Origin: Neoalteromonas arenosi
GTDB taxonomy: Bacteria > Pseudomonadota > Gammaproteobacteria > Enterobacterales > Alteromonadaceae
DNA: 64,000 nucleotides
Reading direction: 5' to 3'
NCBI RefSeq assembly: GCF_030362855.1
Contig: NZ_JAUCBP010000007.1
Coordinates: 620,675 to 684,674, forward strand
Positions 59,038 through 60,171 of the stretch are shown piece after piece. Below the pieces are notes generated by a model that did no database searches, was not told the DNA's origin, and saw only the letters and a program-made list of their open reading frames with translations. A program made the translations under genes and the position numbers. Position 1 is the stretch's first letter, and every line of letters starts with the position of its first letter.

Positions 59038-59129
59038 GGAGAGGTGGCAGAGTCCGGCTGAATGCACCTGACTTGAAATCAGGCGAAGGGTCAAACCTTC
59101 CGGGGGTTCGAATCCCTCCCTCTCCGCCA
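59038..59129 (+). tRNA. tRNA-Ser (anticodon TGA)
   Basis: A 92-base tRNA with a long variable arm, expected for serine. The acceptor GGAGAGG pairs with CCTCTCC before G and an encoded CCA; the T-loop is TTCGAAT. The anticodon loop reads CTTGAAA, giving TGA for UCN codons. Followed by its own terminator. Confidence 0.98.
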
Positions 59130-59138
59130 AAATTACGA

Positions 59139-59163
59139 AACCCCGCAAATGCGGGGTTTTTTT
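59139..59163 (+). terminator. Terminator after tRNA-Ser
   Basis: AACCCCGC (59139-59146), loop AAAT, GCGGGGTT (59151-59158), then continuing T's to 59163. Confidence 0.92.
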
Positions 59164-59207
59164 AATTTGGGGAAAAGGGATGCTTTGATGAGAAGCTCAG
59201 GTCCGAC

Positions 59208-59274
59208 AAAAATGCCGGGAGCATTTTTGAACGTGCGAAGCACGGCCCGAAGGGCGAAGGGCAGGAAGCCCGGA
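59208..59274 (+). other. Structured non-coding segment behind tRNA-Ser
   Basis: Several short hairpins stand in a row: AAAAATGC/GCATTTTT (59208-59228), CGTGC-GAA-GCACG (59232-59244) and GCCC-GAA-GGGC (59245-59255). It lies in a 363-base region (59164-59526) with no convincing gene, between the tRNA terminator and uvrY. An Arg-rich reading frame crosses it (59149-59358) but has no ribosome site I would trust. Confidence 0.5.
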
Positions 59275-59276
59275 GT

Positions 59277-59296
59277 AATCCCTCCCTCTCCGCCAA
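59277..59296 (+). repeat. Direct repeat of the tRNA-Ser 3' end
   Basis: AATCCCTCCCTCTCCGCCAA here is identical to 59111-59130, the T-arm and acceptor end of tRNA-Ser including CCA. The copies are 166 bases apart. Similarity continues loosely after both copies (ATTAC..GAAA..CC.GC), so this looks like a decayed tandem duplication. Confidence 0.85.
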
Positions 59297-59526
59297 TTAC
59301 AAGAAAACCTGCTTTTCAGCGCGAAGCCCGCAGAGAAAGAACGCTAGAGTGTTTTTGATTGATCCCCAGAGGTGGCACTCCCTCGTTTTATTTAAGTCCC
59401 AGATTAGTAAGAACCTTCGAGTAAATAATACTCGCGATGCCAGGATTGTGAAAAAACGGGATTTTCAATCGCTGCATAACGATGTAAAGTTAGGACTCTT
59501 CATTACAATACAAATAACAATTCAAA

Positions 59527-60171
59527 GTGATAAAAATTCTACTGGTCGACGACCACGACTTGGTTAGGACAGGCATAAAAAGGATTCTAGAAGACGTAAA
59601 AGACTTTTCTGTCGTCGCTGAAGCAAAGTGCGGGGAGGATGCCGTAGCTATCTGTCGTAAAGACGCACCGGATGTAGTTCTGATGGATGTAAACATGCCA
59701 GGCATGGGCGGGTTAGAAGCCACTCGTCAGATCATGCGTATGTCAGAAAATACTCGTGTAATAGGGCTTTCAATGCAAAGCGAAAGTCCTATACCAGCAA
59801 AAGTTATGCACAATGGTGCATTTGGTTTTCTAACTAAAGACGCTGAGCCCAACGAAGTTATTAATGCAATCTATAAAGTAGCAGCAGGGCAAAAGTATCT
59901 TGCACCGGATATTGCACAACAAGTGGCTTTGGGCTTCTTAGATATGTCTGATGCCAACCCATTTGATCAGCTAAGCGATCGAGAGCTTGAAATAACCATG
60001 ATGCTGATTAAGGGACAGAAGGTACCTGATATTGCTAATTTATTGAATATTAGTGCTAAAACCGTCAATACTTATCGGTATAGAATGTTTGAAAAACTGT
60101 CGGTAAACAGCGATGTCGAGCTGACTCATTTAGCATTACGGCATAAGTTGATCACCTCCGAACAGTTCTAG
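59527..60171 (+). CDS. uvrY: Response regulator UvrY/GacA
   Basis: A 214-residue regulator: an N-terminal receiver with phospho-acceptor Asp in DVVLMDVNMPG and a C-terminal LuxR-type HTH (LSDRELEITMMLIKGQKVPDIA, then ISAKTVNTYRYRMFEKL; core LSDRELEI). In relatives it answers BarA/GacS and drives Csr small RNAs. The start is GTG 59527, without a strong Shine-Dalgarno. uvrC begins immediately after its stop. Confidence 0.95.
   Translation: MIKILLVDDHDLVRTGIKRILEDVKDFSVVAEAKCGEDAVAICRKDAPDVVLMDVNMPGMGGLEATRQIMRMSENTRVIGLSMQSESPIPAKVMHNGAFGFLTKDAEPNEVINAIYKVAAGQKYLAPDIAQQVALGFLDMSDANPFDQLSDRELEITMMLIKGQKVPDIANLLNISAKTVNTYRYRMFEKLSVNSDVELTHLALRHKLITSEQF

Follow-up and report, generated by a model that had tools for sequence, protein, structure and literature searches.

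Why should the last bases of a tRNA gene be repeated, in the same orientation, a short distance past the gene itself? The question is raised by the tRNA-Ser(UGA) gene in the 64,000-base stretch of DNA analysed here (the window), where AATCCCTCCCTCTCCGCCA, the last 19 bases of the gene (the tail), stands at 59111 and again at 59277, a spacing of 166. The exact repeat comes to 20 bases in all, the 20th being the first base past the tRNA, which confirms the 20-base recurrence 166 bases downstream reported in the first-pass annotation, and a looser direct repeat (36 nt, 81%) extends into the terminator. Besides this tRNA-Ser tail, no second 19-mer repeat was found anywhere in the window. Directly downstream of the repeat stands a regulator gene (59527-60171) that, judging its sequence by eye, is of the uvrY/gacA type. 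Judged by sequence, the feature is almost certainly a tRNA-linked repeat (TLR), homologous to RrA, RrB, RrF, and RttR of E. coli (Table 1).

Table 1. Features of the tRNA-Ser(UGA) repeat, in window coordinates.
Feature	Position	Strand	Basis
tRNA-Ser(UGA), anticodon TGA, host stable RNA gene	59038..59129	+	ARAGORN; Rfam
Tail copy 1, the tRNA 3' end	59111..59129	+	Repeat search
Intrinsic terminator T1, separating tRNA from repeat (stem 59137-59160)	59137..59163	+	10 pairs, T run
Rfam RtT (RF00391) full-length match, under gathering score	59156..59295	+	Rfam (L001 1495-1634)
Anti-tail strand (P1, 5' side), partial complement of tail copy	59169..59182	+	Fold, duplex test
Hairpin H0	59182..59196	+	Fold
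TLR core, 75 nt, four hairpins	59205..59279	+	Model R1
Hairpin H1, loop CGGGA, GGA at 59218-59220	59207..59229	+	Fold, structure model
Hairpin H2	59232..59244	+	Fold, structure model
Hairpin H3	59245..59255	+	Fold, structure model
Hairpin H4, loop AGGAA, GGA at 59264-59266	59259..59271	+	Fold, structure model
Tail copy 2 (P1, 3' side), CCA at end	59277..59295	+	Repeat search, fold
Terminator region, decayed copy, 3' of tail copy 2	59296..59329	+	Repeat search, terminator scan

Structure of the repeated unit

The tail copies are separated by 147 nt, and the core begins 76 nt past the tRNA-Ser gene on the same strand, overlapping the second tail copy by three bases. Folded at minimum free energy, 59160-59295 forms a multi-branched structure of six hairpins, H0 to H4 and one further small one, all enclosed by pairing of the anti-tail with tail copy 2 (z = -1.94; 9 of 200 shuffles equally stable), in agreement with the chain of short hairpins described earlier between the copies. 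The structure model of the core (R1) was built from 23 cores, the window copy among them; across these cores, 97.2% of pair cells are formed, and 13 of the 19 core pairs have both sides changed (slid controls, 32-48%). Searched against the whole genome, R1 scores the window core at 97.9 bits (E = 8.2e-31), a value obtained on one of its own training sequences. A terminator scan of 59296-59329 gave no terminator-like match, and the second terminator is decayed in the window copy.

The first-pass annotation had also pointed to an arginine-rich reading frame, likened to the Tpr peptide of tyrT. Such a frame is present and open in the window (59149-59358, 69 aa), but its start codon falls within the terminator hairpin, and start and open frame occur together in just one of 69 tail-matched copies, that of the window itself, and in none of the other 68. 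The frame is open in nine of the 69, and core length is no multiple of three in 31. The frame stands, then, as a property of this copy, while a gene for an arginine-rich, Tpr-like peptide is not supported and is, in our judgement, extremely improbable.

Relation to the tRNA-linked repeats of E. coli

E. coli is reported to carry 22 TLRs at ten loci, each repeating exactly 18-19 bp from the 3' end of the tRNA or rRNA that precedes it (PMC8144298). By the account of the same paper, their first description in E. coli dates from 1978, no function was known for them until that study, and one of them, a tyrT copy, had been assigned a function that was later withdrawn; RrA, RrB, and RrF, the TLRs after rrnA, rrnB, and rrnD, were shown there to be transcribed and processed (PMC8144298). 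Elsewhere, tRNA-linked repeats are named in an editorial (PMC9245011), RtT RNA is noted for a tandem GA motif (PMC7657543), and rtT RNA is tabulated in Salmonella as a 175-bp variable repeat (PMC2658671).

Our comparison with the E. coli rrn operons covered rrnB and rrnD, both of which carry, in K-12, a related spacer between terminators. Against the TLR between rrnB T1 and T2, the window core reached an alignment score of 71 (shuffle mean 17.5, z = 22.9, 500 shuffles), with z = 21.6 for the rrnD spacer and a score of 52 (z = 13.1) for the tyrT copies. By these alignments, the window core is closer to RrB than to the RtT/tyrT copies, and the window copy is a TLR with an Rr-type core sitting on a tRNA. 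Homology to the E. coli TLRs is also indicated by model R1, which detects the loci L063, L065, and L032, L063 being a training locus.

The Rfam RtT model gives the window copy a full-length match at 32.2 bits (E = 0.0034), short of the curated cut-off of 45, and a whole-genome RtT search gave one match (E = 3.6e-4), its position unlisted and its value fitting the score of the window copy. The four RtT copies of E. coli K-12 tyrT-tyrV score 132.9-137.5 bits, and the Asp-linked copy of one relative (L026) scores 47.5 bits. The comparison with E. coli tyrT/rtT drawn in the first-pass annotation was, therefore, correct, and given the full-length RtT match and the tyrT alignment, the relation is one of homology and not mere resemblance; the alternative it raised, an independent invention, is ruled out by the RtT match and the rrnB and tyrT alignments, which place the window copy within the E. 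coli TLR class.

At gathering score, the Rfam scan of the window returned only four tRNA genes and no CsrB, CsrC, or Rsm match; the rsmX model matched the repeats of two relatives weakly (28.5 and 27.6 bits; cut-off 56). Matches to the Rfam sX4, SpF41, and plastid-family models beside the tRNA were rejected, as they overlap the tRNA itself and fall below the cut-offs.

Distribution, host RNAs, and tails

Counting a genome as positive for R1 at E <= 0.001, we found matches in 147 of 196 genomes of the family, 173 of 369 of the class, and 108 of 398 of the phylum, each sample being evenly drawn and many of the phylum matches lying in family f225, outside the class. The RtT model matched 62 of 295 genomes of the order, 42 of them above its cut-off. 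Exact matches to a degenerate core pattern come from records that include Alteromonas, Colwellia, Thalassotalea, and Bowmanella; an upstream RNA gene is found in 20 of the 33 named records with this pattern, with an exact tail in seven of the 20.

The copy set comprises 269 cores (279 rows less ten duplicates), which are the best-scoring matches listed plus comparison loci and not a random sample; alignment A4 covers 150 of the 157 matches. A tRNA or 5S gene lies within 1200 nt upstream on the same strand in 169 cores, and the tail matches this host RNA in 71 of them (at most 3 of 18 mismatches; 56 exact), the other 98 having a poorer tail or no room for one. The misses include L210, which has no room for a tail, and for L063 and L065 five mismatches were counted since the 5S end was placed from a model, where 18 identical bases are reported (PMC8144298). 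Ten RNA classes are represented among the 71 tail-matched copies (Pro 16, Ser 10, Lys 10, Arg 9, Glu 9, 5S 5, Tyr 5, Gln 5, Val 1, and Asp 1), and in 92 of the 169 RNA-near copies the own tail is better than every other-class tail.

This breadth bears on two origins put forward in the first-pass annotation, a decayed tRNA-Ser duplicate and an old integration scar. A directly repeated tRNA 3' end is what a phage or island leaves, and a tRNA-Thr gene of the same genome is followed by repeated units resembling partial tRNA copies. However, homologous copies of the insert occur at many unrelated RNA genes; it is an RNA module in its own right, with covarying hairpins, and follows ten stable RNA classes. 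The tRNA-Ser/uvrY site of two genus mates (G001 and G003) holds a terminator and spacer only, with no island. The distance from the tRNA to uvrY is ~155 nt in G001 and ~176 nt in G003, compared with ~398 nt in the window, a difference of ~220-245 bp, and the two tails of the window are only 147 nt apart. Neither origin was borne out, and we regard both as very unlikely.

The regions downstream of tRNA-Ser in relatives, which the first-pass annotation had singled out for comparison, do not all carry the repeat. No R1 match was found at the Ser-tga loci of the genus mates G001 (Alteromonas flava P0211 or nearly so, with 2350 bases identical), G002, and G003, and uvrY was not found on the stretch examined in G002; a core or RtT match is present after the Ser-tga gene at seven loci of relatives, the loci having been chosen by such a match. 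At the Ser-gga locus, the window's own genome retains only a core remnant where G001 has an intact core; given this remnant and the three genus mates without the repeat at Ser-tga, the repeat is evidently dispensable there. Nor is uvrY a usual neighbour of the Ser-tga repeat, as a uvrY-like match occurs at one of the seven relatives' loci (L168, 60% identity) and none was found at L014, L054, L129, L133, L175, and L183, some with short flanks.

Within its own genome, the core is carried by two of the 51 stable RNA genes examined, Ser-tga and one 5S, a count that collapsed rRNA operons in the assembly may affect. The 5S-linked copy, the second TLR of the genome (L304, G000:C7:1-900), has an exact tail, a core scoring 36.6 bits, and, by eye, an enlarged H1 loop. 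We also noted tail repeats of a different kind: downstream of tRNA-Leu(CAA) stand three 73-bp tandem units that lack a TLR core and all close with a copy of the tRNA-Leu tail, 1 of 18 bases being mismatched in each (L299, G000:C2:67360-68170). Units of ~122 nt resembling decayed partial tRNA copies follow tRNA-Thr(UGT) (L280, G000:C11:141400-142160, a stretch with a short N run), ending in the tail exactly in two cases and with two mismatches in one, and two 80-nt units, with 4 of 18 tail mismatches, lie downstream of the third tRNA-Val(UAC) gene in a set of three (L287, G000:C6:96780-97800).

The tracking of the host RNA by tail and anti-tail offers a clean way to test whether the tail is a borrowed processing signal. 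For the anti-tail, we applied a duplex test to 63 of the 71 tail-matched copies, those with a core starting 25-110 nt past the RNA. The mean anti-tail duplex was -14.8 kcal/mol with the own tail versus -11.3 kcal/mol with other-class tails and -11.3 kcal/mol for the shuffled strand (own versus other-class, paired test, p = 1e-7, n = 63, the copies being related to one another). The own duplex lay below the shuffle mean in 55 of 63 copies, among the best 5% of pairings in 20 and outside them in 43, and was unequalled by other-class tails in 11; the value for the window itself includes pairing with the terminator arm. Many copies, though not all, preserve the helix around the tail.

The tail's capacity to form a helix, as it does in the tRNA, would also suit a second 3'-processing or termination module, backing tRNA maturation and limiting read-through into uvrY with the core hairpins as mere spacer. 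Among 60 distinct tail-matched copies having 80 nt downstream, 20 have a terminator-like site separating RNA from core (shuffles 1.6), and 16 have one past the tail (shuffles 2.0). The same scan, however, found no terminator between RNA and core in 40 of the 60 and none after the tail in 44, the window copy is without its second terminator, and the GGA loops and core stems are conserved beyond the needs of a spacer. We consider such a module unlikely.

A weightier alternative is a selfish, MITE-like hairpin repeat that spreads as DNA, has no RNA function, and is tolerated since the copied tail keeps the host RNA intact. In 100 of the 269 cores, no tRNA or 5S gene lies within 1200 nt upstream (64 of these with at least 1000 nt available), and presence varies between genus mates. 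In one genome (G712), twelve core copies (L232-L243) sit within a MITE-like unit of ~200 bp, with TTAA at both ends in seven of the twelve (by eye), and in G588, the eight copies examined share flanks beyond the core to varying extent (by eye). Taken alone, however, such spread does not account for tails and anti-tails that fit the host RNA. Further, 24 of the 71 tail-matched copies have their nearest core on the same RNA of a different genome, where random choice would give 8.5, a sign of descent in place. We hold the selfish reading to be a real possibility, but a doubtful one.

Descent in place nonetheless accounts for only part of the pattern, given that the nearest core is on a different RNA in another genome in the remaining 47 of 71 cases (61.8 expected). 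Recent copying between RNA genes of one genome was not seen, with none of the 71 nearest cores from the same genome, a zero that carries little weight with 0.7 expected by chance. Tandem duplication of the unit explains arrays, the 20 nt past the tail matching at >=80% in 16 of 60 copies, but not the first unit.

Three further placements were noted by eye. At L008 and L009, the core lies upstream of tRNA-Ser(GGA) within a partial copy of tRNA-Ser, 22 bases from the start of that copy, as though inserted into the D-loop, and at L021 (G032) a partial core lies in the atp operon, between atpB-like and atpE-like genes.

GGA loops, CsrA, and comparison with known systems

Both the H1 and H4 loops contain GGA in 183 of the 220 cores outside the training loci (loops located by a simple stem search, training-locus exclusion list compiled by hand), a share that is biased upward since R1 was trained on GGA cores. 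Both loops are found in 49 of 59 tail-matched cores, 57 of 74 RNA-near cores without a good tail, and 77 of 87 cores without an RNA nearby. The GGA loops are not special to RNA-linked copies, and as the RNA-less cores keep both loops as often, their conservation may reflect the existence of the core as a repeat in its own right. In the window copy, H4 reads CAGGAAG, which we take to fit the CsrB repeat consensus. The host genome gave one csrA match, and GGA is absent from the H1 and H4 loops of the E. coli tyrT copies.

In E. coli, RrB is reported to bind CsrA and Hfq in vitro, with an overall KD for CsrA of ~100 nM, and its CsrA shift was lost in the tested range once three GGA motifs were changed to UUU (PMC8144298). 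The three rrn-linked TLRs bind both proteins, the 19 tRNA-linked copies scored below 0.01 in a CsrB/C-type prediction, and deletion and overexpression of rr TLRs had modest effects only, both in the same direction (PMC8144298).

The two conserved GGA hairpin loops suggest that RNA of the repeat may soak up CsrA. Transcripts reading through T1 would carry the TLR; the tail, in a helix like the original, would be cut and trimmed by the tRNA 3'-maturation enzymes, releasing a short RNA that would bind a CsrA dimer through its two GGA loops, such that free CsrA would fall in step with stable-RNA synthesis. Counting against this reading, T1 is strong and the second terminator of the window copy is decayed. 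Taking TLR identity and this mechanism together (a processed read-through RNA, two GGA loops, and CsrA titration), a reading drawn from sequence features, we see the case for and against as about evenly balanced.

UvrY activates csrB and csrC in E. coli. With the second terminator decayed, read-through could continue into uvrY, and given that the repeat lies directly before this gene, the leader of a Csr-pathway regulator could in this way acquire CsrA sites. The presence of a CsrA-type core on a tRNA here, and on several tRNAs in many genera, indicates that the division between rrn-linked and tRNA-linked copies seen in E. coli is not general. More speculatively, and in a form we think rather unlikely to hold in full, TLRs would be one widespread class of RNA module, in Gammaproteobacteria and at least one family outside, that adopts the tail and anti-tail of its host RNA and reports stable-RNA synthesis to CsrA from tRNA genes and rRNA operons alike, here possibly also through the uvrY leader. 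Should CsrA binding hold, the output of tRNA and rRNA would be coupled directly, through an RNA, to the carbon-storage regulator.

Among known systems, MITE and REP elements resemble the window feature in that the core also occurs away from RNA genes, within MITE-like units of some genomes; the window core differs in being the sole tRNA-linked core of its genome and in carrying the tail of its own tRNA. With CsrB, CsrC, and RsmX, it shares GGA within hairpin loops, but the window repeat has two such sites where those RNAs have many, and its RNA would stem from a tRNA precursor and not from a promoter of its own. RtT/RttR is closer in its tRNA linkage, its unit length (166 nt in the window, 178 in RtT), the P1 helix of anti-tail and tail, the sequence near H3 and the tail, and the full-length model match, but it is without GGA in the H1 and H4 loops, and the Tpr frame is not conserved among window-type copies. 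From RrA, RrB, and RrF, the window copy differs in that its host RNA is tRNA-Ser and not 5S, and in its decayed second terminator; with them it shares GGA in the H1 and H4 loops, a first terminator upstream, and a tail taken from the preceding RNA, and with RrB and RrF in particular, a 70-column core alignment to the rrnB and rrnD spacers with compensatory changes in the stems.
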